Source: Bacteroidia bacterium (GTDB taxonomy: Bacteria > Bacteroidota > Bacteroidia > SpSt-205). Taken from it: a DNA stretch of 64,000 nucleotides. Positions 1 through 64,000 of the stretch are shown here, piece after piece. Positions within the stretch are counted from its first letter, which is position 1. Each line of letters starts with the position of its first letter. A program made the translations under genes and the position numbers. The DNA is taken from contig JAOAHZ010000002.1 of assembly GCA_026414975.1 (NCBI GenBank), positions 62,001 to 126,000 of the forward strand, given 5' to 3'. The notes under the pieces were generated by a model that was not told the DNA's origin, searched no databases, and saw nothing but the letters and a program-made list of their open reading frames with translations.

Positions 1-1789
1 TTCCATTAGAGTCTGTTCCATCCCACTGCGGGTTTCCAATGATTTCTTTCACCAAAAGACCCCAACGAGAGTAAATTCTCAATCTACTCCACTCTAAGGG
101 AGGCGCAACAATGATGAAGAGGTCGTTAACGCCGTCTCCATTAGGAGAGAAGGCTGTAGGCACAAATATACCTGAGAATGGCCGCACCCAAATGACCCGA
201 ATGAAGGTATCCAGGCATCCTTCCGAACTGCGAGCGATGAGGACAACCTCGTATACAGTATCCCGAGGGAAACTGTAAGTCAAGAGGGGGGCTTGAGAAA
301 CCAAAGTGCCTCCGATGATCCATTGCCATGCAGCTCCTCCCCGAGAGCTGTCTATGAGAGTAATAGGCTGACCAACCTCGATAGAATCGGAAGGTACCAC
401 CACAAAATAAGCCGTGGGTGCTGGATAGACATACAGAACAAATGGGGAGCTCTCCACTGAGCCGCATGCCTGTAACACCTGAACGAAGTAGGTGCCAGCT
501 TCGCGAACGACCAGCACTGAGTCAGTGGCGCCTATGATTGGAAGCCCGTCTCGGAACCACTGGTAACTCAGCGCAGGAGAAGCTACCAGACGCAGGCTAT
601 CCCCCCAACAAATCCCCTGAGGCGACTCAGGCGAAATACTAACGGAAGGAGCGGGCAACCCCCTCACCTCTACTGAGGCGCTCACGGCAGTGCATCCGAA
701 AGGGTTAGTAGCAGACACGGTATATACTCCGGGAGCATAAATCCACACACTACTCCCTTGAAGGCCATGACTCCATGTGTAGGTCCAGCCTGGAACAGGG
801 TTTTCCACGGCAAGCTCCAGAGAATCGCCAGGACATAGCTCATGAGGTCCCTCAGGAATAATCCGCACGCTGGGCTGCCGAACTGCCAGAGCAAAAGGGG
901 TAGGCGAGAAAACGCTGACCGACTGGGTCATCCAACTAAATCCTCCACTGGAGCTTAAGATACCCCCAACGCTATCCCACTGGGTGCCGCTCCAGTGAGC
1001 GGCTGCATCATAAGGCCCATCTCGAATGGGATCAAACGCTATCTCTAATAAAGCATTGGGCGGACCTGAGATATGGTGGAAGAAGTCAGGATTAATCAGA
1101 CATAGACGAACATCTCGCCTGCTTCGGTCGTAGCCTTCAACCGTAGCATCGGAGGGAGCAAAGCGCCCCGCATACAGTCCATTTCCTAAAGGCGTAATAT
1201 AAATGGGACGATACCGAAGCACTGGCAACGAGTCACCTAATGGGAAAACATAGCGTTCTCCAGCTATACACTCGCGCTCCAAAGCCCCACCCTGAGCTGA
1301 TCTCACAAATCCCGCATTCCGCACAATAGAGTTAGGGGAAGCCTGACGATGGTGAAGCGTTTCTGCGTGCGTATTGAGCATTTGGTTACCTAAATCCAAC
1401 CAATGACGCACATAAGCCGATAGAGCTAAGTTCTTACTGGAGGTTCCCCGAAGCTCCAGCGTGTCAAAATGGATGGGGTCTGTTCCAGTTATCCACTGGT
1501 AGCCTCCCCATAACTGGACTTTACCGGGCGGCACAGGTGCTCCGTTGGGAAAGGCAGGTAGAAACATCACATTGCCCGCTTGATTGTCTAAGGTATCCGT
1601 TATGAAAAAAGCCCCCGATTGATACCAGCGTCCGCCTTGGCGATTAGTTACACTGCCTACGACACTGAGGATAGTGCCTGGCTCCACCCGAATCACCTCC
1701 CCCCAGTTACTTAGAGTCTGAGAGAAGCTCAGTCCAACCAAGAGGAAAGGGATTGAGAGGCTCACCCTATCGCAGAAGCTACAACTCAT
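1..1789 (-). CDS. Large secreted protein with Ig-like/PKD repeats and CHU_C (T9SS type B) C-terminal domain, partial
   Basis: The frame is open from an ATG at 1789 to the left edge, so the last residues are missing. It begins with a signal peptide (hydrophobic SLSIPFLLVGLSF) and about 300 residues I do not recognise. Ig-like repeats follow with the recurring pattern CPGDSL / CWGDSLRL ... G-YTV / G-YFVQV, then a PKD-like stretch. The last visible part is the gliding-motility-associated domain (FVPTAFSPNGDGVND, then RIYSRWG and WDGTDSNG), which in Bacteroidota directs export through T9SS and attachment to the surface. The role is probably a cell-surface or adhesin-like protein; the ligand is unknown. 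The start is set by a TATATTTGC box 7 nt upstream. The gene is divergent from the metalloprotease at 1882. Confidence 0.85.
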   Translation of the reverse strand, partial: MSCSFCDRVSLSIPFLLVGLSFSQTLSNWGEVIRVEPGTILSVVGSVTNRQGGRWYQSGAFFITDTLDNQAGNVMFLPAFPNGAPVPPGKVQLWGGYQWITGTDPIHFDTLELRGTSSKNLALSAYVRHWLDLGNQMLNTHAETLHHRQASPNSIVRNAGFVRSAQGGALERECIAGERYVFPLGDSLPVLRYRPIYITPLGNGLYAGRFAPSDATVEGYDRSRRDVRLCLINPDFFHHISGPPNALLEIAFDPIRDGPYDAAAHWSGTQWDSVGGILSSSGGFSWMTQSVSVFSPTPFALAVRQPSVRIIPEGPHELCPGDSLELAVENPVPGWTYTWSHGLQGSSVWIYAPGVYTVSATNPFGCTAVSASVEVRGLPAPSVSISPESPQGICWGDSLRLVASPALSYQWFRDGLPIIGATDSVLVVREAGTYFVQVLQACGSVESSPFVLYVYPAPTAYFVVVPSDSIEVGQPITLIDSSRGGAAWQWIIGGTLVSQAPLLTYSFPRDTVYEVVLIARSSEGCLDTFIRVIWVRPFSGIFVPTAFSPNGDGVNDLFIIVAPPLEWSRLRIYSRWGLLVKEIIGNPQWDGTDSNG

Positions 1790-1795
1790 GGGTAA

Positions 1796-1804
1796 GCAAA
1801 TATA
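1796..1804 (-). promoter_or_regulatory. -7 box (TATATTTGC) of the CHU_C surface protein gene
   Basis: Perfect TAnnTTTG on the minus strand with 7 nt between TTTG and the ATG at 1789, so the mRNA probably begins at or next to the start codon. It faces a twin box at 1870 on the other strand. Confidence 0.65.
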
Positions 1805-1869
1805 CCACTTAGCTTGATTTGAAGAAGCTATGAGGGAGCTCTGAAGTCGTTTCCAACCAAACACTGTTG

Positions 1870-1878
1870 TATATTTGC
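1870..1878 (+). promoter_or_regulatory. -7 box (TATATTTGC) of the M43 protease gene
   Basis: The same nonamer as at 1796, here on the plus strand, with 4 nt (CCAC) between TTTG and the ATG at 1882. Its position rules out an upstream TTG start at 1867, which would lie before the box. Confidence 0.65.
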
Positions 1879-1881
1879 CAC

Positions 1882-4047
1882 ATGGATTTCCTCATAGCTG
1901 GGGTCATCTGGATGCAAGCCGCCTGGTGTGGCACAGATGACTTTGTTGGACAAGTGGACCCTGACTGGGAATTTCGTCGCCTGCTCTTGGAGGGAGCAGC
2001 CCCCCTCATAGAGAGTCAGCAGCGTACTAACCAACCAAGCTGTACCCCTTCAAGATACATCATACCTGTTGTCTTCCATGTGATCTACTCTAATAGTTCC
2101 GATAGCATCAGTTACCAGCGCATTTGGAATCAGATGCTGCGGGCACATGAGGACTTCAGACGGATACCTGAGACGGCTGGCTTTGCAACGGGGGGCGCTG
2201 ATACGGAGATAGAATTTTCCTTAGCCACTAAAGACCCTAATGGTAATCCCACCACGGGTGTAGTGTATTGGAAATACGATCAGCCCCCTCTCAATTGGAC
2301 CTCACCAGACTTCTGCCGAGAGACCCAAGATTATTCCATGAAGCAAGCGACAGGATGGGACCGCAGTCGATACTTGAATGTATGGATCGTGCCGCGTCTA
2401 TGTACTCGCTCCAGTAGCAGCTCGCCTTGCAATCAGTGTAACATAGTGGCTGGTTATGCATTTTTCCCATTCATATTAGACCCTATATCTTATGGCACGG
2501 TGATTGGCTCTGACTACTTCTGGGGCGGACCTTATTCTCGAGGAATGCGAACCCTTATTCACGAGTTAGGACACAATCTCAACCTTCCTCATACCTTCAA
2601 TAACGGATGCGGCGGTACCAACTGCGGCACTACGGGAGACGGAATTTGTGACACCCCTCCCACCGCTGCAACGAATGGAAACTTCTCCGTGCGGCGGCAA
2701 AACACTTGCACAAATGATAACCCAGATCTCCCAGATAACACGCGCAACTATATGGATTATGTAGTTGACGCAGATATGACTCACTTTACAGTCGGCCAGC
2801 GAGCTCGCTCCTGGGCTGCCATTCAGAGCAGCTCTTCCCGGCTCTCACCGCTGGTACGCAGCATCATACCTCAGCAAACAGGTACAGGGGCTTATGGTCG
2901 TGTCAAAGCCTATTTTAGCGCTTCCCAGCGAGTGGGCTGCCCAGGCGAACCCATTCAGTTCTTTAGCTACAGCATGGGTGCGCCCCACATTTACGAATGG
3001 AGTTTTAGTGGGGGCATCCCTGACAACCCGTCGGCTTCTTGTCCTACAGTAACCTTTCCTGCAGCGGGCACATACGACGTTCAGCTAATCGTGGAAAATC
3101 AAAGCGGTCGCCGAGATACCTTGCTGAAACAAAACTACATTCGCATTCAGGATACTATTTATAACCTTCCTTATATCCAGGATTTTGAAGGTGCTGTCTT
3201 CCCCCCTTTGGATAGCTACATTCAGAATCCAGATGGGGGCCGCACTTGGGATCGGTTCCGAAGCACTTCCTCGCCAAGGGGGGCTTACGGTGCTTCGGCT
3301 ACCTCTATGAGATTAGCCTTTTTCAGCTACAGTTCTTATAGAGAGTCAGATAGTTGGGTAACCCCCTCTCTTGACCTTCGCCCCTATACTGGCTCCTCAC
3401 CTTCCGTGCAGCTCAAGTTCTCTTGGGCTTATGCCTGCTTGAACTTTGAAGGCACAGTGGGAAGCTATAACTCTTATGAGTTGGATTATATAGACTCCTT
3501 GCGAGTCTATGTCTCCACAGATTGCGGCCGCACGTGGGACTTAGTATGGCAGCGCAGCGGACGAGCCCTCTCCACTCATCCAGATGGATGCATCGTTGCT
3601 CGCGGCTCTGTGTCCTCCACTTCACACCAATTCCTTCCTTCAAGCTCCCAGTGGGCTACCGATAGCCTCCTCCTGGATGACTATAAAGGACAAGTGATTC
3701 GTCTCCGCTTTGAGGGTATCTCTGGCTGGGGCAATAACCTGTACTTAGACGATATTGTAGTAGACACTCTGCCATCGCTATCCACTAACCTAAGGCCTCT
3801 CTCGCCAATCATACGAGCATACATCAGCGATGCCACTTTACATTTATCTATCTCAACAGACCTACCGAACTTAGCCCTAAGGCTGTACGACATACAAGGG
3901 CGCGAGATATGGAGGGATAGCCAAGGACCTCTCTCGGCAGGAACCCATCGTATCTCGCTTCCAGATGACCTGAGCCCAGGTATATATCTTCTGCGCTTAG
4001 ACGGGGGGCAATCTACCCTCACCTTGAGATATTGGCACGCGCCGTAG
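1882..4047 (+). CDS. Secreted M43 (pappalysin/cytophagalysin-type) zinc metalloprotease with T9SS type A tail
   Basis: 721 residues. A short signal peptide precedes the protease domain. The domain carries the metzincin zinc motif HELGHNLNLPH (first His near residue 227) and a Met-turn NYMDY, as in M43 peptidases. Cys-rich loops (CGGTNCGTTGDGICDTPP) are typical of the family. A PKD domain follows (GEPIQFFSYS ... YEWSFSGG ... YDVQLIVEN), then a jelly-roll-like region ending in NNLYLDDIVV. The C-terminus matches a T9SS type A sorting domain (LRLYDIQGREIW ... LSPGIYLLRL). Expected outcome is export and surface anchoring or release after tail cleavage. The kinase gene begins almost directly behind its stop. 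Substrate unknown. Confidence 0.9.
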   Translation: MDFLIAGVIWMQAAWCGTDDFVGQVDPDWEFRRLLLEGAAPLIESQQRTNQPSCTPSRYIIPVVFHVIYSNSSDSISYQRIWNQMLRAHEDFRRIPETAGFATGGADTEIEFSLATKDPNGNPTTGVVYWKYDQPPLNWTSPDFCRETQDYSMKQATGWDRSRYLNVWIVPRLCTRSSSSSPCNQCNIVAGYAFFPFILDPISYGTVIGSDYFWGGPYSRGMRTLIHELGHNLNLPHTFNNGCGGTNCGTTGDGICDTPPTAATNGNFSVRRQNTCTNDNPDLPDNTRNYMDYVVDADMTHFTVGQRARSWAAIQSSSSRLSPLVRSIIPQQTGTGAYGRVKAYFSASQRVGCPGEPIQFFSYSMGAPHIYEWSFSGGIPDNPSASCPTVTFPAAGTYDVQLIVENQSGRRDTLLKQNYIRIQDTIYNLPYIQDFEGAVFPPLDSYIQNPDGGRTWDRFRSTSSPRGAYGASATSMRLAFFSYSSYRESDSWVTPSLDLRPYTGSSPSVQLKFSWAYACLNFEGTVGSYNSYELDYIDSLRVYVSTDCGRTWDLVWQRSGRALSTHPDGCIVARGSVSSTSHQFLPSSSQWATDSLLLDDYKGQVIRLRFEGISGWGNNLYLDDIVVDTLPSLSTNLRPLSPIIRAYISDATLHLSISTDLPNLALRLYDIQGREIWRDSQGPLSAGTHRISLPDDLSPGIYLLRLDGGQSTLTLRYWHAP

Positions 4048-4069: not shown

Positions 4070-5989
4070 ATGAAGTTTAAAGCCATACGGGTAGCTAATG
4101 CACCTGGCCCAGGAGAACAGCTACCTCAACTTCCCCCTCGCCCTGCTCCCTACACAGTCTACCTTTTGCCTAAGTCCCATCCTAAGCTCTCTGAACCTTT
4201 TCCTACCCTCAGGTACGATCCCCGAAAAGCCACCCGGTTCCCTGAGCGCTATTACGCCCCCGAGACCCTCCACCCAGCTCAAATAGGACTCGCTTGGTAT
4301 TTCTACAAGTACAGGCGATATCGGCGCTTACGGTGGCGCATAGCTCTCTTGCAGCGGGCCCCCTCCATCTATTACTTCGCTTTTGACAGAGCGGGTCGAT
4401 TGATAGACTACAATCCTGCCTTCAAAGAAGCCCTTCGCTCGCTCGGACGTCCCGACCCCATCATAGGACAACCTGCGCCAGACATAGTCTTACCTGAGAA
4501 TAGAGATGTCTTTGACTCAGACCTTCAGACCGTTTTAGAAGGGCATGCTATTCAACTACAGCGAGTCATAGGTTCTCGTCATGCTGAGGTTTATATAACC
4601 CCTCTCTCTAAACGAGGGGACGCATTTGCGTATTATGCCTTAGACACTACCATCTACAGGCAGCTCTTAGAAGCAGCTATGATGCAACAGAATCTGCATG
4701 AAGCTATCCTCCAACACTTGCGAGATGGGGTGATTCTCTTGGATGCTGATCAAAAAATACTTTATGCCAATGCTGCAGCCGAGCGCATTTTAGGTGAAGA
4801 AGCCGTTGTGCTTGTCGGCACCCCCTGCCCAATACCTCTGCAAGAAGCAATCTCTATCTACCGCAATCAGCCCATTTCAACCAACTCCATACCTGTGGGG
4901 GACGAACGGACCCTCTTAATCGTGCGAGACCTATCGGAGCTATGGGAAGCAGAGAAGCGACATAATTTACTTAGAAAAGCTATCGAGGAAGCCCCCTTCG
5001 GAGTTTTGATCTTGTCTTATACCCCAGAGCAGTGTAAGGCTATTTACTACAATCAAACCTTCAAAGATTGGCTTATACCCGATGGAGATAGTCTTCCTGC
5101 AGCTCTACGTCACCATGTAAGCTCCCAAGAATGGAAATCACTCCTACGACACCTAAGAGAAAGACAAACTTTTCAGGTTTTGCTTCGAAACAATCATAAA
5201 AGTAAGAACTGGACTCACCTATTGGCTGTGTTCTTCCCTATTGACTTGACTCTTCCAGATGGAGAGACAGAGCTCTACTGGGCGGTGGTTTTTCAGAATC
5301 AAAGTGAAACCTACCGAGCTGCTCAGCGCCAGCGCCGACTTGAGCGACATCAGCATCAACTGATTTTAGAGGCGCAGGAAAAAGAGAGACAATACTTGGC
5401 AGAGGAACTGCATGACAACCTTGGGATGCTTTTGAGCGTCCTAAAAATGGAGCTTTCTACCCTCATGCAAGATATACCTCCTTCATCCCCCTTGCGTATC
5501 CGACTCCAAACCCTTAGCACACGATTAGATGAAGTTATTCAGCATGTGCGACTCACGAGCCATCAGCTGATGCCTCCCTTAGTGGAGCACTTTGGACTGA
5601 TCCCGTCTTTAGAAGGCCTGCTGCGAAGGCTACGAGTTACGAATGGCTTAATAACGCACCTCAAAGTAAGCGGGGAAGAAGTTAACCTACCCCTTATCAA
5701 AAGGCTTCAGATATACCGAATCCTTCAAGAGCTGATTACGAATACCCTGCGACACGCTCGAGCTCAAAACCTACACATACACCTAACCTACCAGAAGCGC
5801 CGGCTTATCTTGGAAGTATGGGATGATGGCCGTGGATACGATCCAGCCACGACACAACGAGACGGCATCGGTTTGCGCAACATCGTAGGACGCCTCCAGG
5901 TACTGCGAGCTCATTGGGAAAATCTCTCCGCACCTGGACAAGGGGCTCATTACCGAATAGAAGTTCCTCTCCCCCGTAGAAAGTCTTAA
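4070..5989 (+). CDS. Cytosolic PAS-domain sensor histidine kinase (NarL-type, HisKA_3)
   Basis: 639 residues from the ATG at 4070; a TTG at 4049 would add seven residues and start 1 nt after the protease stop. No transmembrane segment is visible, so it should sense a cytoplasmic signal. About 100 N-terminal residues of unknown type are followed by two or three PAS-like domains (around 110-220, 235-330, 335-430; for example DGVILLDADQKILYANAAAERILG). The dimerisation helix contains ELHDNLG, with the phospho-acceptor His near residue 448. The ATPase has an N-box-like ELITNTLRHA and a G-box DDGRGYD. It pairs with the regulator that starts 12 nt later. A link with the upstream protease is suggested only by proximity. 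Confidence 0.92.
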   Translation: MKFKAIRVANAPGPGEQLPQLPPRPAPYTVYLLPKSHPKLSEPFPTLRYDPRKATRFPERYYAPETLHPAQIGLAWYFYKYRRYRRLRWRIALLQRAPSIYYFAFDRAGRLIDYNPAFKEALRSLGRPDPIIGQPAPDIVLPENRDVFDSDLQTVLEGHAIQLQRVIGSRHAEVYITPLSKRGDAFAYYALDTTIYRQLLEAAMMQQNLHEAILQHLRDGVILLDADQKILYANAAAERILGEEAVVLVGTPCPIPLQEAISIYRNQPISTNSIPVGDERTLLIVRDLSELWEAEKRHNLLRKAIEEAPFGVLILSYTPEQCKAIYYNQTFKDWLIPDGDSLPAALRHHVSSQEWKSLLRHLRERQTFQVLLRNNHKSKNWTHLLAVFFPIDLTLPDGETELYWAVVFQNQSETYRAAQRQRRLERHQHQLILEAQEKERQYLAEELHDNLGMLLSVLKMELSTLMQDIPPSSPLRIRLQTLSTRLDEVIQHVRLTSHQLMPPLVEHFGLIPSLEGLLRRLRVTNGLITHLKVSGEEVNLPLIKRLQIYRILQELITNTLRHARAQNLHIHLTYQKRRLILEVWDDGRGYDPATTQRDGIGLRNIVGRLQVLRAHWENLSAPGQGAHYRIEVPLPRRKS

Positions 5990-5995
5990 GTTTGC
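5987..5995 (+). promoter_or_regulatory. -7 box (TAAGTTTGC) overlapping the kinase stop codon
   Basis: The TAA stop of the histidine kinase is also the TA start of a TAnnTTTG box placed 7 nt before the ATG at 6002. The regulator can therefore be expressed independently of its kinase. Confidence 0.55.
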
Positions 5996-6001
5996 GCCTT
6001 G

Positions 6002-6688
6002 ATGAGTTCTCAGCCCGTCAACCTTTTCGTCGTAGATGACCACCCGCTAATAACCCAAGGAATAGCGGGTCTTTTCTCAGGAATTCCTGACATTTCTATC
6101 TCAGCGGTAGCCCACAGCCTGGCGGAGGCTAAGGCGATTCTGCGCGAAAAGGGGAACTCCTTACAGGTAGCCCTTGTAGATATTCGGATGCAGGATGGAA
6201 TGGGCATGGACCTCGTGCGATACATGACCCGCCATTATCCACACATCAAAGCCATAGCTCTTACCATGTATGATACCGAAGACTACCTCCGAGCAATGAT
6301 TCAAGCCGGCGCTTTGGGGTATGTCCTGAAGAATACCTCTCGGGAAGAGCTTTTAGAAGCTATACGGACTGTCTTAGCAGGACACTACTACTTCTCTCAA
6401 GCAACTCAAGATGTCATAGGGCAGTACATCTTGAGGCAGCAAGAACGGCCAGCCGGTCGCTCTCGTTCAGGCTCTTCGGAAGGCATTCATCTCACCCCAC
6501 GAGAAAGAGAAATCTTGGAACTCATCGCCCAAGAGATGACGAACGTCCAAATCGCTGAGAAGTTAGGGTTATCCCCCCGAACTGTCCATACTCACCGCCG
6601 AAGCCTTATGCAAAAGTTAGGCGTGAAAAACTCTGCCGGCCTCGTTCGATACGCTATAGAGATAGGGATTGTCCCTTCTCGTTCCTAA
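6002..6688 (+). CDS. NarL/FixJ-family response regulator
   Basis: 228 residues. The receiver domain (about 6-125) has the acidic pair VVDDHP, the phospho-acceptor Asp near residue 60 (ALVDIRMQDG), the T/S position (ALTMYD) and the Lys in YVLKNTS. The output domain is a LuxR-type helix-turn-helix (LTPREREILELIAQ ... NVQIAEKLGLSPRTVHTHR). It is the obvious partner of the preceding kinase. The start could be the TTG at 5999 just before the ATG; the ATG is preferred. Targets are not known. The protease and the CHU_C protein next door are candidates by position only. Confidence 0.93.
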   Translation: MSSQPVNLFVVDDHPLITQGIAGLFSGIPDISISAVAHSLAEAKAILREKGNSLQVALVDIRMQDGMGMDLVRYMTRHYPHIKAIALTMYDTEDYLRAMIQAGALGYVLKNTSREELLEAIRTVLAGHYYFSQATQDVIGQYILRQQERPAGRSRSGSSEGIHLTPREREILELIAQEMTNVQIAEKLGLSPRTVHTHRRSLMQKLGVKNSAGLVRYAIEIGIVPSRS

Positions 6689-9608: not shown

Positions 9609-10182
9609 AGTCTGCTAAAAGTTCTCGTAGAATTTTTCTCGCTCGATGAAGCCGAGAACGAATCGTTCCCACAGGAATACGCAGGACCTGGCTGATTTCC
9701 TTGTAAGAAAACCCTTCTACATCAGCTAAAATCACAATAGTTCGGAAGTCTTCGGGTAGGTGCATGAGGGCTTTTGTAACTTCATCGCCAAATAGTCCTT
9801 CAGTAGGGTCTTGATAGTTGTGGTAGGCATGAACATCCTCTATGTCGTAAATACTCTGCTCATTCTGAGCTTCAAGAGAGTAAGGCTGTTTGACTGATTT
9901 GCGGTAATGATTGATGAAAGTATTTCTCAAGATTCGAAAGACCCATGCTTTGGCATTCGTTGAGGGTTTGTATTGATAGAGGAAGCGGTAGGCTCGGAAA
10001 AGCGTCTCCTGAGCTAAATCGCGAGCTATATCACGGTCCCCAACTAACCGCACGGCGAAATGATACACCGATGAAGCATGGGGCATAATCTCTCGCTCAA
10101 AGAGCGAATCATACAAGGCCTTTTGCTCGGGCGTCATGTCGGGCATCTTCTTGGGCTTGCGCCCGCGCACGCGGATTTCCAT
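9571..10182 (-). CDS. ECF sigma factor, SigR-like
   Basis: 203 residues from the ATG at 10182. Sigma region 2 contains LAQETLFRAYRFLYQY and the -10 recognition part TNAKAWVFRILRNTFINHYRK, which closely follows the actinobacterial SigR pattern (NLKAWL-RI--NTFIN-YRK). Region 4 has LPEDFRTIVILADVEGFSYKEIS and GTIRSRLHRARKILRELL. An anti-sigma gene with a CxxC motif follows directly, as in sigR-rsrA. The expected role is a response to thiol-oxidative or envelope stress. A TACCTTTG box 5 nt before the ATG indicates a housekeeping-type promoter. A GTG two codons upstream lies against the box and is less likely. Confidence 0.9.
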   Translation of the reverse strand: MEIRVRGRKPKKMPDMTPEQKALYDSLFEREIMPHASSVYHFAVRLVGDRDIARDLAQETLFRAYRFLYQYKPSTNAKAWVFRILRNTFINHYRKSVKQPYSLEAQNEQSIYDIEDVHAYHNYQDPTEGLFGDEVTKALMHLPEDFRTIVILADVEGFSYKEISQVLRIPVGTIRSRLHRARKILRELLADYAASHGYDIPQD

Positions 10183-10187
10183 ATACA

Positions 10188-10195
10188 CAAAGGTA
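10188..10195 (-). promoter_or_regulatory. -7 box (TACCTTTG) of the SigR-like gene
   Basis: Five nucleotides separate TTTG from the ATG at 10182, so a leaderless transcript is predicted. Confidence 0.6.
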
Positions 10196-12087: not shown

Positions 12088-13050
12088 TCACACGGAAAGT
12101 GTTTCAGGAAAATTTATCTTTTGTCTAATATGAGCTGGTGCGCGACCCGTGGATTCATAATAGACACGCACCAGCAGTTCTGCTAATACTCCAATAAGTA
12201 AAAGCACCACCCCTACGCTGATGAAAAGCGCCGTAAACACAGGCAGTGGGGTCTCTACAAAAGACTTCTGCTTAGTGAGCTTGTAAAACATAGCCCAGCC
12301 AAATGTCCCCAAACCGAGGAATATAGAAATAAGCCCCACTCCCCCAAAAAACTGGATAGGACGCTGCAGGTATCTGTCCAAGAAGACAATCAGCACTAGG
12401 TCCAATAGAACCGACACGACACGCATCATCCCGTAGTTGCTGCGACCGTATTTACGGGGGCTATAGGTTACGGGCACTTCGGTGATGCGCCCTCCCTCCC
12501 ACTTGGCGTAGATTGGAATGAACCGATGCATGCGTCCATACAGTCGGACAGGTGCTATGACTTCTCTTCGATAAGCCTTTAGGGTACAGCCGTAGTCATG
12601 TAAATAAACACCCGACAGGCGACTAATCAACCAGTTGGCTAAAAGAGATGGTAGCCTACGGGTGAAAAACTGCCCTTTCCAGCGCTGCTTGCGCCACCCA
12701 CTCACGACATCAAAACCCTCTTCGAGCTTCTCCAAAAGTTTAGGGACATCGGCTGGATCATTTTCTAAGTCAGAGTCCATAAGCACTATCACTTCGCCCT
12801 GAGCATGCTGAATACCCACCTGAATCGCCAAAGTCTGCCCGTAGTTTCGGCGTAGCAGAATAACCCGCATCCAAGGATATCTGCCGGCCAACTCCTTCAA
12901 TACCCTGGCTGACTCATCCTTAGACCCGTCATCCACGAAAATCACCTCAAAATCATAGGGTAAGCTACTCATTACAGCTTCCAATCGCTCTACCAGCTCA
13001 GGTAGACCCGGCGCCTCATTGTACACAGGTATCACGACCGACAGCCGCAT
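12088..13050 (-). CDS. Family 2 glycosyltransferase, polyprenyl-phosphate type (DPM1/GtrB-like)
   Basis: 320 residues. The GT-A domain starts directly with LSVVIPVYNEAPGLPELVERL and has VDDGSKD and the metal-binding DSDLENDP. Two C-terminal transmembrane helices (about 230-255 and 265-290) complete the ArnC/GtrB layout. Such enzymes move a sugar from a nucleotide carrier to undecaprenyl phosphate. It is first in a two-gene unit with asnB and has a TACCTTTG box 4 nt before the ATG. Substrate sugar unknown. Confidence 0.92.
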   Translation of the reverse strand: MRLSVVIPVYNEAPGLPELVERLEAVMSSLPYDFEVIFVDDGSKDESARVLKELAGRYPWMRVILLRRNYGQTLAIQVGIQHAQGEVIVLMDSDLENDPADVPKLLEKLEEGFDVVSGWRKQRWKGQFFTRRLPSLLANWLISRLSGVYLHDYGCTLKAYRREVIAPVRLYGRMHRFIPIYAKWEGGRITEVPVTYSPRKYGRSNYGMMRVVSVLLDLVLIVFLDRYLQRPIQFFGGVGLISIFLGLGTFGWAMFYKLTKQKSFVETPLPVFTALFISVGVVLLLIGVLAELLVRVYYESTGRAPAHIRQKINFPETLSV

Positions 13051-13054
13051 TTAA

Positions 13055-13062
13055 CAAAGGTA
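13055..13062 (-). promoter_or_regulatory. -7 box (TACCTTTG) of the glycosyltransferase-asnB unit
   Basis: Four nucleotides (TTAA) separate the box from the ATG at 13050. Confidence 0.6.
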
Positions 13063-13820: not shown

Positions 13821-14204
13821 TCATTTATGCTGTCCAGACCAACTGAGCCATACAGCTACAATAATCAGTCCAAATGCTATATATTGGCGCAAACCAAGCT
13901 TTTCGCCCGCAAACAGAACACGAACCACTATTACAAACACTAAGATGGAGATGGCCTCTTGAAGAACTTTCAGCGTAACCAGAGAAAAGGGCCCTCCCGT
14001 CCCTCGGAATCCTAGGCGATTAGCCGGTACTTGGAGGAGATACTCAAAAAAGGCTATGCCCCAGCTTCCCACTATTGTCAGTAGCCACCCATACAAGGAA
14101 AGCCGCCCAGAAGGTTGAACTCGTAGATGTCCATACCAAGCTAAAGTCATGAATAGGTTAGATAACAGCAGCAGACCTATCGCTGCCCATCCACGCCACG
14201 ACAT
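13821..14204 (-). CDS. DMT-superfamily small membrane protein (DUF486)
   Basis: 127 residues with four transmembrane helices: WAAIGLLLLSNLFMTLAWYG, LYGWLLTIVGSWGIAFFEYLLQVPANR, LQEAISILVFVIVVRVLF and YIAFGLIIVAVWLSW. The FFEYLLQVPANRLG stretch and the overall size match DUF486 proteins of the drug/metabolite transporter superfamily. No substrate is established for the family. A TACCTTTG box sits 8 nt before the ATG. Confidence 0.88.
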   Translation of the reverse strand: MSWRGWAAIGLLLLSNLFMTLAWYGHLRVQPSGRLSLYGWLLTIVGSWGIAFFEYLLQVPANRLGFRGTGGPFSLVTLKVLQEAISILVFVIVVRVLFAGEKLGLRQYIAFGLIIVAVWLSWSGQHK

Positions 14205-14212
14205 AGGAGGAG

Positions 14213-52100: not shown

Positions 52101-53266
52101 TTCCCTGTTCCATACCCATTCGTGCCATTTTCAACAAGTGGAGAGCCATCTTTCCAGATAGAACGCATGTAGTTGTAAAAGTGTATAGCATTCTCGGGAT
52201 TCCCCCGCACACTGAAGTCATTCTCGTAGTACATAAAGTTTGTCATCTTGAGCCGATTGCCGTTCTCATCTAAAGGGCCCTGAAAGAAGTCAGTTCCAAT
52301 AGCAGGTGGATTTATACCATAACCCGGTCCAGAGGGATTATCATCGTTATCGCCGTTGTAGCAGTACCCTAAGCCGCGAGCTGTATCGCATCCCACATAG
52401 TCATCAGCATAGAATCCTAAGTCGGCATCCACCCAAACCGCCATATATGTCTGCTGCAGCGCCAAAGTACCCCGATTGATGATTCGGTACTTGTAGAAGG
52501 TCATGTCATTAATCTGGTCGGTAGTAGCAAAAGCAAATGCCATAGCCTGAATCTCCAAGCCAATAGCAGGGGCACCCGTTTCTGTATGTACGTTTCCTCG
52601 GTCATTATAAACCCACCAGATCGCCATATCTCCCAGAACATCAGGATAATCTCCTGCCGTAGGGGAGTAGTCTCCATCTCCATTCACATCCACAAATGGA
52701 GCCAAGGTACGCTCAAAGCCGGGGGCTGGGTTGATTGCAGGCCAGTTGGCTACATTAGGAAAGTCTCCTAAATTGATGTTGTTCGGGTCCGATTGGTAGG
52801 CAGCTCTGAAGTTGTCTATTTCCCGGCGGGTAATGACAAAGTGTCTGTCCCATTGACGACAGGTGTTGTCATCAGTAGTGCCTTGCAGGGAAAGAGGGCC
52901 GGCGAAGAAATCTACTCCGCTTTGCCGATATGTTTGTGCAGCAAGGCGCAGACGGCCTGCTGCATCTATGCCACCTACCCATATAGCACTGGCAAACATA
53001 GAATGAACCGCAGGCACACCCGGAGGTACTTTTGGAATTTCGTAGCGGGGGTTCTGTACTAAGTCCCACCACATATCGCCCCCGTTGTGGATAAGACAGC
53101 GCACATTATTAAGGTCCAACTGTACGCTGGATGTAGGAGCTGTACAGGTGCTGGCCGTACGGGGAGCTATTCGGCGTTGGACAGGTCCCATGATCTCCCG
53201 TGCCCAAAGGCCCGTCATGTTAGCCACTACCAGTACTAAGGCTATTCTCTCTGACATGACACGCAT
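49130..53266 (-). CDS. Very large T9SS-exported protein of the TonB/PorV-linked family
   Basis: 1,378 residues from the ATG at 53266, which has a TATATTTG box 8 nt upstream. A signal peptide (IALVLVVANMTGLWA) is followed by VRCLIHNGGDMWWDLVQNPRYEIP and a long beta-rich body with Asp/Asn-rich loops (DVNGDGDYSPTAGDYPDVLGD, YNGDNDDNPSG). The C-terminus is a type A sorting domain: IVPNPFYGRSG, IRIFTLNGVLVRTFRKD, EWDLKNEYGVPIASGVYIIHVE. Proteins of this plan are found between a TonB receptor and PorV in other Bacteroidota, from memory. No enzymatic motif was seen; a surface structural or binding role is likely. Confidence 0.85.
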   Translation of the reverse strand: MRVMSERIALVLVVANMTGLWAREIMGPVQRRIAPRTASTCTAPTSSVQLDLNNVRCLIHNGGDMWWDLVQNPRYEIPKVPPGVPAVHSMFASAIWVGGIDAAGRLRLAAQTYRQSGVDFFAGPLSLQGTTDDNTCRQWDRHFVITRREIDNFRAAYQSDPNNINLGDFPNVANWPAINPAPGFERTLAPFVDVNGDGDYSPTAGDYPDVLGDMAIWWVYNDRGNVHTETGAPAIGLEIQAMAFAFATTDQINDMTFYKYRIINRGTLALQQTYMAVWVDADLGFYADDYVGCDTARGLGYCYNGDNDDNPSGPGYGINPPAIGTDFFQGPLDENGNRLKMTNFMYYENDFSVRGNPENAIHFYNYMRSIWKDGSPLVENGTNGYGTGNPTHFIYTGYPGGPTVASLCRFSPPPGDWNEVTVGNPPFDRRYLQSAGPFTLQPGAVNDVIIGVPWARDINSQHGPANDGRIGSVCLLLQADDIAQALFDNQFRLVEGPDAPDLEIVELDRELVLTWRYKNPLANNYYENYRQVDPVLKARGAADSTYRFEGYLIYQLRDERVSVADLGDPTRAALIGQCDLKNGITSIVNREQIILPGQSTPLIVDKVMVNGKDQGLFYTLRVKEDRFAEGTDPRLVNYRRYYFMILAYAYNGEATNDKKFILGRNNVRLYEAIPHKPTGGGGGVGFVLGSSYGDGPPSIARVSGQGNGGNIMRMTPEAEQALLSPPYRLGEASYQSDASPFRVRVVDPRQVKPYDYRLVINTDTSNRQITLTGGTDTTILLKEWDLYGRPSGSNTPEQLIYTSWVALSKRVWDYGLNTWTFIKNQFLSGTERIIPGHGISISVRQVLDPGIEGRFYRASDYPWICQTNNPDVYYFEMDPKNGLIAVNVEYADPTKPWLSFFSKETYGWARGPNTGTVIGVPSLGGTGGVQAYSPGCQITFSGTGSSPYPPPPGNQVWLRFYDGTYQIFYRDSASLGWVPFGLVTPYTNLDPSQVGIGIGYYATRSPAVLPYLADPDEAITLSKLPSMQVVITPDPSKWSKCLVIESSPSLGLSRLVGSSTPRTAKWRVSRDVLRGDTLAYRNEPLSISSQGYSWFPGYAINLETGERVNILFAEASWFRGENGDDMLFNPTASPGTGGDALGGRHWILVTTYPYDECQKFAEWLCVADSAPRRTAGSGVQSITFGKVGAPGDSVRIDSFYKYVAWVSLPRLAGPQYQFRHYKDIPTEVRITLAVNKSFKSGPNGEPPTFRFSTSSLAVRPGDLSTMKSALEQIRIVPNPFYGRSGVGRGRYETSQIDTRARITNLPTRCNIRIFTLNGVLVRTFRKDSEEPYIEWDLKNEYGVPIASGVYIIHVEVPGVGQRVIKFFAIMPQIDLNAY

Positions 53267-53274
53267 ATGTATCA

Positions 53275-53282
53275 CAAATATA
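53275..53282 (-). promoter_or_regulatory. -7 box (TATATTTG) of the large T9SS protein gene
   Basis: Lies in the 21-nt gap behind the TonB receptor gene, 8 nt before the ATG at 53266. It gives the gene a promoter of its own. Confidence 0.55.
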
Positions 53283-56999: not shown

Positions 57000-57008
57000 T
57001 ATCTTTGC
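57000..57008 (+). promoter_or_regulatory. -7 box (TATCTTTGC) of lpdA
   Basis: TTTG ends 4 nt (CGGC) before the ATG at 57012; one of the tightest cases. Confidence 0.65.
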
Positions 57009-57011
57009 GGC

Positions 57012-58400
57012 ATGGAAAAGCGCCTGATTATCATCGGCGGCGGACCGGGCGGCTATGTGGCAGGGATTCGCGCCGCCCAGCTTGGCTTTTCAGTCCAACT
57101 CATAGAACGAGAGAACCTCGGCGGCATCTGCCTCAACTGGGGCTGCATACCCACCAAAGCTCTATTGAAGTCAGCTGAAGTTTTAGAGTATCTTCTCGCC
57201 GCAGAGCACTACGGGTTCAAAGTAGGCGAACCGCAAATAAACTTCCCTCAAGTCATAGCTCGCAGCCGAGCTGTCGCCGATAAAATGAGTCGCGGGGTGG
57301 ATTTCCTGATGCGTAAAAATAAGATAGAGGTGATTAAGGGAACAGCCCGATTACAGCCAAACCTCCAAGTAGAGGTGACCCTTCCCGACAAAACAAAGCG
57401 GACCCTGCAAGCCCCTCACGTCATACTGGCTACGGGTGGGCGTGCTGCCAACCTACCCCACATTCAGATAGATGGCCAATCCGTCATAGGCTACCGAGAA
57501 GCCATGACCCTCTCCAAGCAGCCCAGCAGTTTATTAGTTATCGGAGCCGGCGCCATCGGGGTAGAGTTTAGTTATTTCTATCACACCCTTGGTACTAAGG
57601 TTACCCTCGTAGAAGCTCTCCCCCACATTTTACCCCGAGAAGATGAGGAGGTTGCCCGAGAGTTAGAGAAAATCTATCGCAAGAAGGGCCTCTCCATCCT
57701 CACCAGCACGCAAGTAACGGAACTTCATAAGACCAAAAAAGGCATCAAAGCCACCCTCCAGACTCCGACTGAAACCCTCCAAGTAGAAGCAGACGTTGCC
57801 TTATTAGCTGTAGGCATTACTCCTAACACCGAAAGGATTGGGTTGGAGGAGCTGGGTGTCAAAATGGACAAAGGACGAGTGTTGGTAGATGAGTACTACC
57901 GCACGAATGTGCCTGGGCTTTATGCTATTGGAGACATCCTTCCCACACCAGCCTTAGCGCATGTAGCTTCCATGGAAGGGATCATTTGTGTAGAAAAGTT
58001 AGCTGGACTTGACCCTCAGCCTTTAGACTATTCTACCATCCCAAGCTGCACTTACTGCCAACCCGAAATAGCTTCCATGGGATTGACTGAAAAAGCGGCG
58101 CGGGAGAAAGGCTATGAAATCAAGGTGGGTAAGTTTCCCTACACCGCCTCAGGAAAGGCTTCCGCTATAGGGAAAAACGAGGGGTTTGTCAAGCTGATTT
58201 TGGATGCCAAGTATGGAGAGCTACTCGGAGCTCATATCATTGGACCGAATGCTACTGAGATGATAGGGGAGCTGATTACAGCCCGGCGACTGGAAAGTAC
58301 GGGACACGAGATAATGAAGACGATTCACCCACATCCTACGCTATCGGAGGCTATTATGGAAGCGGCAGCCGCTGCTTATGGAGAGGTGATTCACTTATAG
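57012..58400 (+). CDS. lpdA: Dihydrolipoyl dehydrogenase
   Basis: 462 residues. FAD site IIGGGPGGYVAGIRAAQLG, redox-active disulfide GGICLNWGCIPTKALLKS, NAD site LLVIGAGAIGVEFSYFYHTLGTKVTLVE, YAIGDILP and the active-site His-Glu in HPHPTLSEAIMEAA. It reoxidises the lipoyl arm of 2-oxoacid dehydrogenase or glycine cleavage complexes, none of whose other genes are in the window. The last 6 bp overlap the convergent transporter gene. Confidence 0.96.
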   Translation: MEKRLIIIGGGPGGYVAGIRAAQLGFSVQLIERENLGGICLNWGCIPTKALLKSAEVLEYLLAAEHYGFKVGEPQINFPQVIARSRAVADKMSRGVDFLMRKNKIEVIKGTARLQPNLQVEVTLPDKTKRTLQAPHVILATGGRAANLPHIQIDGQSVIGYREAMTLSKQPSSLLVIGAGAIGVEFSYFYHTLGTKVTLVEALPHILPREDEEVARELEKIYRKKGLSILTSTQVTELHKTKKGIKATLQTPTETLQVEADVALLAVGITPNTERIGLEELGVKMDKGRVLVDEYYRTNVPGLYAIGDILPTPALAHVASMEGIICVEKLAGLDPQPLDYSTIPSCTYCQPEIASMGLTEKAAREKGYEIKVGKFPYTASGKASAIGKNEGFVKLILDAKYGELLGAHIIGPNATEMIGELITARRLESTGHEIMKTIHPHPTLSEAIMEAAAAAYGEVIHL

Positions 58401-59744: not shown

Positions 59745-62347
59745 CCTGCTCGCTTCCGACCTTCTGATATAATGTGCTCCAGTATTTCAGTAGGAGTATA
59801 ACCCAACAAAGCAGCCTGATGAAAGAACACCGTAGCAGGGGTAAGACCAGGCAGGGCATTGACTTCTAAGGTCCAGAACTCTACTTGCCCTTCTCCTAAA
59901 AGCCGCACAAAGCCATCTATGCGGGCGTATCCGCGTATCCCTAAATACGCTGCGATTCGCTCCACTTCGGTTTGGACGGCGGAGAGAGCTTGAGCATTCT
60001 TTATAGGGTCATCGGGATAGAGGCGGGCTGGCGTTATATTCTGACCCACCCCAGCGAGAAACTTCTCTTCTAAGCGCAGAATGCGCTGCTCTTTCACGGT
60101 TTCGCTCGGAGGCAGAGCCTGATACCGAACCCCAGAATCAGAAGTATGGGTGATAACGCCCACGGTAACTTCTATCCATTCGGGTCCGTGGAGATAGGTC
60201 TCTATTAGAGCCTCTTCTTTTAGAGGAAAAGGCTCATCGGGGGCCAAAGCTATCGTCTCACTTAGCTCGACCGGCACTTGTTCCTCTGAACGAAATAAAG
60301 CGGTGAGATAAGCTCGCATTTGGGAAGCATTCTCTAAAACCCGCACGCCAGTGCTGCATCCCTCGTCTATAGGTTTAGCTATGAGAGGATAAGCCCCCAA
60401 ATGAGTCTCTATCTCCTTCAAAATCCGTTCTGGCTCGCTCTGCCATCGCCGTTTCTCCACCCGATAATGTCGGGGCACGATGAAGCCGCCTTCAGCCAAA
60501 CGCTGCTGCGTAGCATATTTATCCATCAAGAGGGCACAAACCTCAGCCGAACTGCCATTGTAGGGAATACCCAGAGCGTCCAAGCGCTTTTGGACCGTGC
60601 CATCTTCACCTGGACGCCCATGCAAAGCCAAGAAGGCGAAATCTATTTTCTCAGGTAGCTCCTCCCAGCGCACTTGACGAGCTGCGTAGGTATCATGAAG
60701 GGTCAAGACTTCCAACTTTTCTCTCTCTAAGTGGCGCCTAACCGCTTGGACCTCGGGTGGAGTGTGCGTCAAGTGAAGAGAGTTGGCCACATCGTCTGCG
60801 TTATCCTTGAAGAGCAGCCGAGGCGGCAGTTCCCATAGCTGCAGCTCGTCCTGCTGAACGGTCAGAAAAAGCGGCATAACGGGGTAAGAGCCAGAAAGTT
60901 TTTGCACGACGTTGCGCCCACTCTCCAAAGAGATATGCCGCTCAGAGGAAGAGCCCCCAAATAACACAGCGATAGGTTTAGGATGGACGCTGAGCAGGGT
61001 ATTTACCTGTCCCAGGTGGAGTCGATGCCGTCGGACAAACCCGGCGGCGGTTCCCGTACGAGGCACTCGAATGGAAAGGTCAATCAGATAAGTCAAAAAA
61101 TCAGTCGGTGAGAAACCCACTTCCGCCGCTTGATGGAAAAGCAGGGAAGCTGGCATCATACCCGAGGTAGTGTTGGGATCGTTGAAATAGATGTCGCCCG
61201 AGTCTGAAACAATCCCATCTAAACGGCAATAGACCTGAAAGCCGGCGGCTTCAGCGAGACGCTCTGCCTGCCTTTGAATAAGGGCGTTAGGAAGGGCAGG
61301 AGAGGGCGTCTTTTTAGAACTTACGCCTGAGAGATACTTGGCTCGGTAATCATAGACCGCTTTCGCTTTCTGGATATGAGTCGGCGGCAAAGCGACTTTT
61401 TCTCCAGTTGGCGTATCTATGACGATGACGGAAAACTCCTCACCTTTTATGAACTGTTCTACGAGGATGTAAGGCGGACTGTCCCAAGCCTCTAAAAATC
61501 CTTGCTGGGGTCGTCGGCGCAGGAAGTGTCGGAGCTCCTCCCAGTCTGTAATCAGTTCGCGAGGCTCACCCTGTCTATCCCGATATAGGGCGGGTAGAGT
61601 CAGACCTTCTATTAGGTCCAAAAGCTCGGGGACAGGGGTCTCTGGAAGCTGGCGCGCCTCCCAAGTAAAGCTGCAACGGCGTACAGCCGAAAGCAGCGCA
61701 GGAGCATCTGAGCAGACCTCTACTCCGATAGTGGAACCTTGCCAAGGGTGCTTGACGACGCACGGGAATCCTACCACCTCCCGGACGCGCCGCTCTATTT
61801 CCTCGGGGGCCTTCCATAGAAGGTCCCGAGGCAAGATGACATACGCTGGTACTGGAAAGCCATGCCGCTGTAACCAGCTTCGCTGAAGCGCTTTGTCCAT
61901 GCCCCAAGCGCTGCTCCCTATCCCTGAGCCCACATAAGGAATCCCCACCTGCTCTAAAACACCTTGAATGCTCCCATCCTCCCCACCCAAGCCATGAAGG
62001 ACAAGAAAAGCCACATCTATCTCCTTAGCCAGCGTTTCTAACGGGAGAATCGGTCCTAAGCGCGTCAAAGCCCGGAGGTAAGCCGAGCTTTCGGGAAAGT
62101 AAAGCTGTTCAGCGTATAAAGGAAACCGCACCTCTGAGGGTAGGTCTTCCGGAGGCGGGAAAAAATCGCTAATCATACCGAAATACAGGTACTTCGGATG
62201 AATCCGTATCATTCGGTGAAAGACGTCCAAGAAGATAGGTATAGCCTGAAACCGACGCTTATCCAACAAGTCATAAACGGTACGCCCCCCAGCGTAGGAT
62301 ACCTCTCGCTCGCGTGAAGCCCCACCTAAAAAGATACCGACTCGCAT
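59741..62347 (-). CDS. Tandem fusion of two D-alanine-D-alanine ligase modules
   Basis: 868 residues, more than twice the usual Ddl (about 310-370). Start at the ATG at 62347, 4 nt behind a TACCTTTGC box. Each half has an N-terminal lobe (FLGGASREREVS; LFGGSSSERHISLESG from about residue 460), HGLGGEDGSIQG / HGRPGEDGTVQK, an ATP-grasp core (VVKHPWQGSTIGV; IAKPIDEGCSTGV) and RLDG / RIDG. The metal-binding end is standard in the second half (LEVNALPGLTPAT) but changed in the first (FNDPNTTSGMMPAS). One half may have a different substrate. It makes the D-Ala-D-Ala terminus of peptidoglycan. Confidence 0.93.
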   Translation of the reverse strand: MRVGIFLGGASREREVSYAGGRTVYDLLDKRRFQAIPIFLDVFHRMIRIHPKYLYFGMISDFFPPPEDLPSEVRFPLYAEQLYFPESSAYLRALTRLGPILPLETLAKEIDVAFLVLHGLGGEDGSIQGVLEQVGIPYVGSGIGSSAWGMDKALQRSWLQRHGFPVPAYVILPRDLLWKAPEEIERRVREVVGFPCVVKHPWQGSTIGVEVCSDAPALLSAVRRCSFTWEARQLPETPVPELLDLIEGLTLPALYRDRQGEPRELITDWEELRHFLRRRPQQGFLEAWDSPPYILVEQFIKGEEFSVIVIDTPTGEKVALPPTHIQKAKAVYDYRAKYLSGVSSKKTPSPALPNALIQRQAERLAEAAGFQVYCRLDGIVSDSGDIYFNDPNTTSGMMPASLLFHQAAEVGFSPTDFLTYLIDLSIRVPRTGTAAGFVRRHRLHLGQVNTLLSVHPKPIAVLFGGSSSERHISLESGRNVVQKLSGSYPVMPLFLTVQQDELQLWELPPRLLFKDNADDVANSLHLTHTPPEVQAVRRHLEREKLEVLTLHDTYAARQVRWEELPEKIDFAFLALHGRPGEDGTVQKRLDALGIPYNGSSAEVCALLMDKYATQQRLAEGGFIVPRHYRVEKRRWQSEPERILKEIETHLGAYPLIAKPIDEGCSTGVRVLENASQMRAYLTALFRSEEQVPVELSETIALAPDEPFPLKEEALIETYLHGPEWIEVTVGVITHTSDSGVRYQALPPSETVKEQRILRLEEKFLAGVGQNITPARLYPDDPIKNAQALSAVQTEVERIAAYLGIRGYARIDGFVRLLGEGQVEFWTLEVNALPGLTPATVFFHQAALLGYTPTEILEHIISEGRKRAG

Positions 62348-62350
62348 CCC

Positions 62351-62359
62351 GCAAAGGTA
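62351..62359 (-). promoter_or_regulatory. -7 box (TACCTTTGC) of the tandem ddl gene
   Basis: TTTG ends 4 nt before the ATG at 62347 and rules out the 27-residue longer frame. Confidence 0.6.
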
Positions 62360-62389
62360 TAGCGGCGAAATCCCTATCTTCGCAAGGCA

Positions 62390-62398
62390 TAGCTTTTG
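62390..62398 (+). promoter_or_regulatory. -7 box (TAGCTTTTG) of lon
   Basis: One base longer than the consensus spacing, 15 nt before the ATG at 62414. Confidence 0.45.
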
Positions 62399-62413
62399 CA
62401 CGCTACGCCTATT

Positions 62414-64000
62414 ATGCGAGACGAGCACAACCCTTTTGCAGAGGATACTGACACTTTGGCTTATGTCCTGCGCGCGTCTGGCATGCCTGAGTTTCCCTTA
62501 GTAGACCTGGAAGTCATAGACATACTGCCGCTCCGTAATACCGTCCTCTTCCCTGGCGTGATTCTACCTATTTCGGTAGCTCGGCCGAGCTCTATCCAAC
62601 TTTTGGAGCATTTGCGCGCTCAGAAGCTCACCTACTTAGCCATTACAGCTCAGAAAAACCCCGACATAGAAGAGGTAAGCCCAGACAATGTCTATACAGT
62701 CGCGACTTTGGCCAAAATCTTGCGGGCCCAGAGCACACCGGAGGGCCACATCACCCTCATGATCCAAGGGCGCCATCGTATTCGCCTACAAGAGTTTGTT
62801 CAGGTGCGTCCTTTCCTGCGGGCTCGCTTTGAGTACATTCCTGAGACTTTGCCTGATGAAACTCGTCAGAAAGGCCTGCTCTTAGCCTTGAGAGAAAACG
62901 CCCTAAAAGCCTTAGAACATCTGCCAGAGAGCCCCCAAGAAGCTCGGTTCATCCTCCAGAACATTCAGGGGCTACCTTTCATGACCAACTTTCTCGCCAA
63001 CAACCTCCCGATGGGAATCAATGAGCGGCAAGCCCTCTTAGAGATAGATGACATGGGGGAGCGCGCAGAAAAGGTATTGGCCCAGCTTCAGAGCCAACTG
63101 AATGTGTTAGAAGTTACAGAAGACATTTTGAATAAGGTTCGCAGCACGCTGGAGCGCCAGCAGCGCGACTACATCCTACGCCAGCAAATCAAGGCCATAC
63201 AAGACGAGTTAGGTGAATCGCCCGAGCAGTCGGACTTCGCCCGATACCAGGAAATCGCTAAAACCAAAAAGTGGCCCCCTGAGGCCCAGCAGACTTTTGA
63301 GCGGGAAATAGCCCGCTTAGAACGCATTCCACCTTTCTCACCCGAATACAGTGTAGCTACAGCCTATATCGAATGGCTTTTAGACCTACCTTGGCTAAAC
63401 TACACAAAGGATCGTTTTGATCTACGCAAAGCGCGCAAGGTCTTAGATAGAGACCACTATGGAATGGAGAAGGTCAAGAAACGCGTCTTAGAATACTTAG
63501 CCGTCCTCAAGTTACGGCAAGACATGAAGAGTCCGATTCTTTGCCTGTATGGACCGCCAGGGGTAGGTAAGACCTCCTTAGCCCGCTCTATAGCGGAAGC
63601 CTTAGGACGCAAGTATGTACGCATGTCCTTAGGTGGGTTACACGACGAAGCCGAGATACGCGGACATCGGCGCACCTATATCGGTTCTATGCCTGGTCGA
63701 ATCCTCCAGCTCCTGCGACGGGCTGGTACCAGCAACCCCGTTTTCGTCTTAGACGAGATAGACAAAATCGGGCACGACTTTCGGGGAGACCCCGCTCATG
63801 CGCTCTTGGAAGTGTTAGACCCCGAACAAAATACTACTTTTCAAGACCACTACTTGGAGATACCGTACGATTTGTCGCGAGTACTTTTTATCGCCACGGC
63901 TAACTCCTTAGACACCATCCACCCGGCCTTGCGCGACCGCATGGAAATCATAGAGCTCTCAGGATATAGCGTGCCGGAGAAGCTCCAAATCGCTCGCCGC
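62414..64000 (+). CDS. lon: ATP-dependent protease Lon, partial
   Basis: 529 codons are present; the gene runs off the right edge. The N-terminal LON domain reads DILPLRNTVLFPGVILPISVARP ... IQGRHRIRLQEF. The long helix region contains RQQRDYILRQQIKAIQDELGE. The AAA domain has Walker A YGPPGVGKTSLARSIA (near 380), KYVRMSLGGLHDEAEIRGHRRTYIGSMPGRI, Walker B FVLDEIDKIG and sensor 1 FIATANSLD. The protease domain lies outside. It degrades damaged and regulatory proteins. Confidence 0.97.
   Translation, partial: MRDEHNPFAEDTDTLAYVLRASGMPEFPLVDLEVIDILPLRNTVLFPGVILPISVARPSSIQLLEHLRAQKLTYLAITAQKNPDIEEVSPDNVYTVATLAKILRAQSTPEGHITLMIQGRHRIRLQEFVQVRPFLRARFEYIPETLPDETRQKGLLLALRENALKALEHLPESPQEARFILQNIQGLPFMTNFLANNLPMGINERQALLEIDDMGERAEKVLAQLQSQLNVLEVTEDILNKVRSTLERQQRDYILRQQIKAIQDELGESPEQSDFARYQEIAKTKKWPPEAQQTFEREIARLERIPPFSPEYSVATAYIEWLLDLPWLNYTKDRFDLRKARKVLDRDHYGMEKVKKRVLEYLAVLKLRQDMKSPILCLYGPPGVGKTSLARSIAEALGRKYVRMSLGGLHDEAEIRGHRRTYIGSMPGRILQLLRRAGTSNPVFVLDEIDKIGHDFRGDPAHALLEVLDPEQNTTFQDHYLEIPYDLSRVLFIATANSLDTIHPALRDRMEIIELSGYSVPEKLQIARR

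Follow-up and report, generated by a model that had tools for sequence, protein, structure and literature searches.

In the bacterial order to which the 64-kb stretch analyzed here belongs (C22:62001-126000, the whole of which is called the window), the mRNAs of most transcription units whose first gene has a recognizable promoter box are very probably leaderless or nearly so, as judged from the −7 promoter box of the primary sigma factor, sigma-A, which lies only a few nucleotides (nt) before the start codon and whose position gives the expected transcription starts. The window comes from a member of the Bacteroidia with a genome of 2.2 Mb in 58 contigs and a GC content of approximately 50%. 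This genome was sampled over 718 kb in stretches, together with pattern counts across the whole genome, and was compared with a congeneric genome in a single contig (G078) and with other genomes of Bacteroidota. The gap is the number of nt between the end of the TAnnTTTG box (TANNTTTG) and the start codon.

Position of the box relative to the start codon

The window holds 47 TANNTTTG boxes against 29.6 ± 4.7 in shuffled sequences, and in 18 cases, spread over both strands, a called gene starts at a gap of 3-8 nt. The original prediction had spoken of about twenty such genes, and the examples it named are all found at the spacing it gave: lpdA, ddl, and the M1 aminopeptidase, TPR, and glycosyltransferase genes at gap 4, dapB and the M23 peptidase gene at gap 3, the ECF sigma factor gene at gap 5, icd at gap 6, and ruvA at gap 7. 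Gene starts were called, approximately, by a box-blind caller whose input was limited to coding potential and start-codon priors, which makes its agreement with the box free of circularity. For most of the 18 genes, the called and the box-defined start are identical; at 14204, 25630, and 40095, the two starts differ by 9-54 nt, and for the gene at 6002, the ATG of the caller lies at gap 7 and a TTG at gap 4. The longest open reading frame (ORF) extends upstream of the box-defined start in at least eight window genes, as expected from the claim that the box rejects long N-terminal extensions in at least that many, and four NCBIfam profile alignments agree with the box-defined N-termini (residue 1 aligned to profile position 1 in ruvA, 2 to 3 in icd, 4 to 3 in lpdA, and 2 to 1 in ddl).

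In the 718-kb sample, start codons opening ORFs of at least 100 amino acids were scanned at every distance behind the box without gene calling. ATG occurs 51 times at gap 4 and 17, 16, 12, and 10 times at gaps 5-8, with a shoulder over gaps 3-9 and approximately two to three per gap beyond gap 9; GTG occurs 18 times at gap 4 and eight times at gap 5, while TTG is flat with no peak behind the box. Over gaps 0-9, the true motif gave 122 matches and permuted motifs, with its six letters rearranged, gave 2-25. Across the whole genome, at a gap of exactly 4, the box and the reversed pattern used as a control gave 192 and 8 matches for ATG, 74 and 8 for GTG, and 21 and 5 for TTG. The genome-wide positional peak on which the original prediction had staked itself is thus present, and it is sharp, at gap 4.

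The motif obtained from 253 first genes of transcription units with box-blind starts reads T-12 A-11 T-8 T-7 T-6 G-5 relative to the start codon. In Flavobacterium johnsoniae, 4 or 5 nt separate the −7 box from the transcription start site (TSS), and the near-invariant positions counted from the TSS are T-12 A-11 T-8 T-7 T-6 G-5 (PMC6847099). The two numberings coincide, so that the start codon begins at the expected TSS. Real Bacteroidota promoters follow TAHHTTTG, with G avoided at the free positions (PMC6847099); at 69 strict gap-4 sites, G makes up 1% at -9 and 9% at -10, positions on which no selection was made. Position -1, likewise not selected on, is a pyrimidine in 78% of sites. The choice of start codon at gap 4 (123 ATG, 45 GTG, and 4 TTG in the samples of the two congeneric genomes) fits a purine at +1, with ATG and GTG favored and TTG nearly excluded. 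As side observations in the genome of the window, the start codon is followed by C in half of the gap-4 leaderless genes and by A in 40% of internal genes, and G is favored at -2 in the leaderless set.

An artefact, in which a preceding box guided the choice of starts or base composition produced the signal, has a negligible probability. The earlier reader did choose starts by the box; however, the caller used here was blind to it, the scan that calls no starts yields the same peak, permuted motifs and other genomes passed through the same pipeline show no such peak, and the profile alignments fix several of the N-termini.

First genes and operon-internal genes

Operon boundaries were guessed from spacing, and the status of a gene as operon-first and its start are both predicted. 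With this classification, a perfect box is found at gap 3-7 before 89 of the 253 first genes (35%) and before 8 of 196 operon-internal genes (4%), while permuted motifs precede 1.6 first genes on average. Most internal genes overlap the preceding gene or directly adjoin it, 52 of the 196 with an overlap of exactly 4 nt, an arrangement that suggests translational coupling. Words resembling the Shine-Dalgarno (SD) sequence are not above the shuffled level in any gene class, operon-internal and leadered genes included. The use of SD sequences in these last two classes was considered and rejected on the same counts.

When the first genes that have a perfect box no more than 60 nt from the start are divided by register, the leaderless and the leadered ones number 90 and 28 in the genome of the window (76% leaderless) and 137 and 12 in G078 (92%). 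Counted over all first genes, a perfect box in the leaderless register is found in 36%-47%, a lower estimate of the leaderless share in being made by the perfect box alone. The claim of widespread leaderless mRNAs is supported for this fraction of first genes and does not extend to the approximately half without a perfect box nearby or to internal genes, which lack it.

The near boxes might instead be real but secondary promoters, with the main transcripts starting further upstream and carrying leaders. The genome has several sigma factors, and the 28 first genes set against the 90 have their perfect box only at a leader-length spacing; yet boxes further upstream within 60 nt are far fewer than near ones, most clearly in G078 (12 against 137), and in several of the apparently leadered genes, an ATG stands shortly after the box and the called start is probably wrong. 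Short divergent spacers also limit the room for distal promoters: divergent start codons lie less than 70 nt apart in 43% of cases in the genome of the window and 39% in G078, and in none in most control samples. Secondary promoters are very unlikely as the general explanation.

One such arrangement in the window is the pair of divergent starts at 45983 and 46013, where a perfect box for one gene and a degenerate box, TACCTTCT at gap 4, for the other stand back to back; only 29 bp separate the starts, which leaves no room for leaders. The region upstream of the plus-strand gene at 46013 is similar in G078.

Conservation in relatives

The two congeneric genomes share 63.8% mean protein identity and 32 orthologous pairs of first genes with the same start. 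Among these shared-start genes, all 15 boxes that are perfect in the genome of the window are perfect in G078 too, compared with 0 of 15 windows further upstream, and several of the remaining pairs have one-mismatch boxes at the same place. The gap between orthologous boxes and starts drifts from 3 to 7, and the flanks are scrambled. In the genome of the window, none of the 34 internal genes in orthologous pairs has the box. The closest named relatives are the metagenome-assembled genomes SKYG57 and SKYB87 (L065, L066), and both keep the box and gap 4 of the window TPR gene (14340-15956).

These data bear on a reading in which the box is a translation-initiation signal, Kozak-like or an AT-rich ribosome contact, that resembles a −7 box and stands in mRNAs with ordinary leaders. 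Bacteroidota are without SD sequences, and in F. johnsoniae, bases that precede the start codon take part in initiation (PMC6847099). However, internal genes would need such a signal as well, and it stands before 4% of them and before none of the 34 orthologous internal starts; the gap drifts over 3-7 nt among orthologs; the motif is exactly that of the promoter, down to the avoidance of G at -9 and -10; and starts 29 bp apart leave no space for two leaders. A translation signal is, hence, extremely improbable.

A promoter box that sets the 5′ end at or near the start codon is supported by the gap-4 peak, the restriction to first genes, the avoidance of G, the purine as first base, the near-exclusion of TTG, the conservation, and the close divergent starts. 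Several points weigh against it. The lengths of the leaders at gaps 5-8 are uncertain, since only 60% of gap-5 sites have a purine as the fifth base behind the box. The classic TTTG at -33 is not evident upstream of the box, where only a weak A/T excess is found near -18 and -28, and this element is weak in F. johnsoniae too (PMC6847099). About half of the first genes (129 of 253) have no perfect box within 60 nt; some of these genes possibly have leaders or depend on other promoters or other sigma factors, and some have degenerate boxes. Mapped 5′ ends could also lie elsewhere than the position of the box implies.

Spread across Bacteroidota

The same register is found in all 12 genomes of the order, in which one family was found, the gap-4 counts for ATG being 133-223, compared with 2-23 in the control. 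Among sampled genomes, 149 of Bacteroidia and 297 of Bacteroidota, the gap-4 ratio is mostly 1-2 and reaches approximately 3-5 in a few families. When the numbers of leaderless and leadered first genes were compared in control genomes, they were 1 and 18 in G062 (5% leaderless), 1 and 11 in G046 (8%), and 0 and 6 in G020 (0%); the value for G062 agrees with published ones. Leaderless mRNAs are thus predicted to be widespread in this order and not in Bacteroidota generally, where most other genomes have leaders.

Family f38 is intermediate, with 16 leaderless and 15 leadered among the 31 box-bearing first genes of one genome (G037, L069-L078) and a three- to five-fold enrichment at gap 4 in three of three genomes, which possibly reflects an independent origin of the leaderless register. 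Several of the control-genome samples are small (68-134 kb), and intermediate values in other families are not firm: f9 has a higher gap-4 ratio on very low counts, f17 has a suggestive register on nine genes, and f19 and f62 have only six to seven box-bearing genes each, too few to judge. Like f38, f17, f19, and f62, family f46 was examined for its raised whole-genome count at gap 4, and it was negative in the gene pipeline.

Sigma factor and translation machinery

The primary sigma factor is 292 amino acids long and of the RpoD type (best NCBIfam matches to RpoD), too short to include region 1.1. The sigma-ABfr of Bacteroidota is short and without region 1.1 as well (PMC6847099), and the box is predicted to be recognized by this short RpoD-type sigma. 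Genes for S1, IF3, and bS21 are present. The 3′ end of 16S rRNA, readable through its conserved 3′ pattern in G078 only, keeps the anti-SD core CCTCC. In the rRNA operon of G078 (L089), this end reads GGCTGGATTACCTCCTTT and not the usual ...GGATCACCTCC. In F. johnsoniae and its relatives, the rpsU gene for bS21 has a strong SD (PMC10783764), which serves autoregulation in F. johnsoniae; in G078, rpsU starts 6 nt behind TATCTTTG (L130 near 1475-1495) and appears to be leaderless. In the genome of the window, infC (L132 near 1470-1490) apparently starts with GTG, 8 nt behind TATCTTTG.

These parts can be assembled into a mechanism, in which the transcription starts and the mode of initiation are inferred. 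The box would act as the −7 promoter element of sigma-A (sigma-ABfr type), fixed 3-8 nt, most often 4 nt, before the start in most first genes with a recognizable box, and RNA polymerase would start at a purine approximately 5 nt downstream of the G that ends the box. With a gap of 4, this purine would be the A or G of AUG or GUG, leaving no 5′ untranslated region (UTR), and at gaps 5-8, a leader of 0-4 nt would result. Translation would then proceed through direct recognition of the 5′-terminal AUG or GUG (fMet-tRNA and IF2 route, on 30S or 70S ribosomes) without SD, and translational coupling, often through the 4-nt overlaps, would give access to the downstream operon genes that lack a box. 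It is likely, with less confidence than for the leaderless mRNAs themselves, that the whole order lives mainly on leaderless AUG and GUG mRNAs with no detectable use of SD, even at the rpsU of G078, and that f38 is in the same state at a lower frequency, suggesting more than one origin in the phylum.

Comparison with known systems

Bacteroidota have lost SD-led initiation. The sigma-A promoters of F. johnsoniae, Flavobacterium psychrophilum, and Bacteroides thetaiotaomicron resemble those described here in the TAnnTTTG or TAHHTTTG −7 element, with a TSS expected 4-5 nt after the box, and the three species also share the short primary sigma without region 1.1, the lack of SD, and the retained anti-SD core. 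They differ in that their box usually stands a leader length upstream, whereas 76%-92% of box-bearing first genes here are in the leaderless register. In F. psychrophilum, 5.5% of mRNAs are leaderless and the median leader is 24 nt (PMC9723704); in B. thetaiotaomicron, 3.7% of 5′ UTRs are shorter than 10 nt (PMC7366714); in F. johnsoniae, 87% of leaders exceed 10 nt, and leaderlessness was explicitly excluded as the cause of SD loss (PMC6847099). The order is thus unlike these mapped transcriptomes of Bacteroidota, which have leaders and a leaderless or nearly leaderless share of 4%-13%, and should provide a testable new case of widespread leaderless expression.

The closest parallel in behavior is found in mycobacteria, where nearly one-quarter of transcripts are leaderless and a 5′-end ATG or GTG is necessary and sufficient (Shell et al., 2015; PMC4633059). 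There too, the promoters of many genes are placed so that ATG or GTG, and not TTG, forms +1. Mycobacteria belong to another phylum with another promoter family, and in the present order, there is no SD fallback for leadered and internal genes. Zheng et al. found leaderless genes, with a TANNNT motif, in one of 37 Bacteroidetes/Chlorobi genomes, accounting for 2.4% of genes (Zheng et al., 2011; PMC3160421); their TA-led genes are alike in that a promoter box approximately 10 nt before the start was taken to mean no leader. Nakagawa et al. listed Bacteroidetes among the phyla reported with many leaderless mRNAs, on grounds of nucleotide bias (Nakagawa et al., 2017; PMC5397173); at the level of the entire phylum, the mapped transcriptomes do not support this. 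Both the Bacteroidota −7 box and leaderless mRNA are known; a mostly leaderless lineage of Bacteroidota appears to be new, with an earlier prediction for a related genome possible.

A promoter fixed to the start codon in one order amounts to a natural experiment. It raises the question of whether a ribosome with a retained, apparently unused anti-SD together with S1, IF3, and bS21 can run mainly on 5′-terminal AUG and GUG. In practice, the box marks true gene starts in these genomes, and heterologous expression would need an exact promoter-to-AUG fusion. The arrangement also suggests that leader-based regulation in this order must be scarce.

Box-bearing genes of the window

In the following list, each range given after the word box covers the box, the gap, and the start codon. 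Gap 4 is represented on the plus strand by the gene for an M43 metallopeptidase with a type IX secretion system (T9SS) sorting tail (1882-4047; TATATTTG, box 1870..1884, ATG 1882), the TPR gene (TATCTTTG, box 14328..14342, ATG 14340), and lpdA (57012-58400; TATCTTTG, box 57000..57014, ATG 57012). On the minus strand, it is found before the glycosyltransferase gene (12088-13050; TACCTTTG, box 13048..13062, ATG 13050), the M1 aminopeptidase gene (19996-22386; TACCTTTG, box 22384..22398, ATG 22386), the acyl-CoA ligase gene of the close divergent pair (43836-45983; TATCTTTG, box 45981..45995, ATG 45983), and ddl (59741-62347; TACCTTTG, box 62345..62359, ATG 62347). Gap 3 occurs with TACTTTTG before the M23 peptidase gene on the plus strand (17586-18410; box 17575..17588, ATG 17586) and dapB on the minus strand (22871-23557; box 23555..23568, ATG 23557).

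At gap 5 are the gene for a SigH/SigR-like ECF sigma factor on the minus strand (9571-10182; TACCTTTG, box 10180..10195, ATG 10182) and that for a TetR-like regulator on the plus strand (32188-32730; TAACTTTG, box 32175..32190, GTG 32188). The plus-strand icd (40095-41549; TAGCTTTG, box 40081..40097, ATG 40095) has gap 6, and the box-blind caller chose GTG 40104. Gap 7, on the plus strand, is that of the genes for a NarL-type response regulator (6002-6688; TAAGTTTG, box 5987..6004, ATG 6002, with TTG 5999 as the gap-4 alternative) and a TolC-like outer membrane protein (26842-28089; TACTTTTG, box 26827..26844, ATG 26842) and of ruvA (39514-40083; TACTTTTG, box 39499..39516, ATG 39514), whose profile is aligned from residue 1. 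Gap 8 precedes the genes for a DMT_6/DUF486 protein on the minus strand (13821-14204; TACCTTTG, box 14202..14220, ATG 14204; ATG 14150 by the box-blind caller), a protein without a family match on the plus strand (25630-26619; TACCTTTG, box 25614..25632, ATG 25630; TTG 25648 by the caller), and a PorZ-like protein of 1378 amino acids on the minus strand (49130-53266; TATATTTG, box 53264..53282, ATG 53266).

The ddl product, of 868 amino acids, carries two N domains of D-Ala-D-Ala ligase together with several stretches of the C domain, making this two-domain protein a tandem fusion of two ligases.

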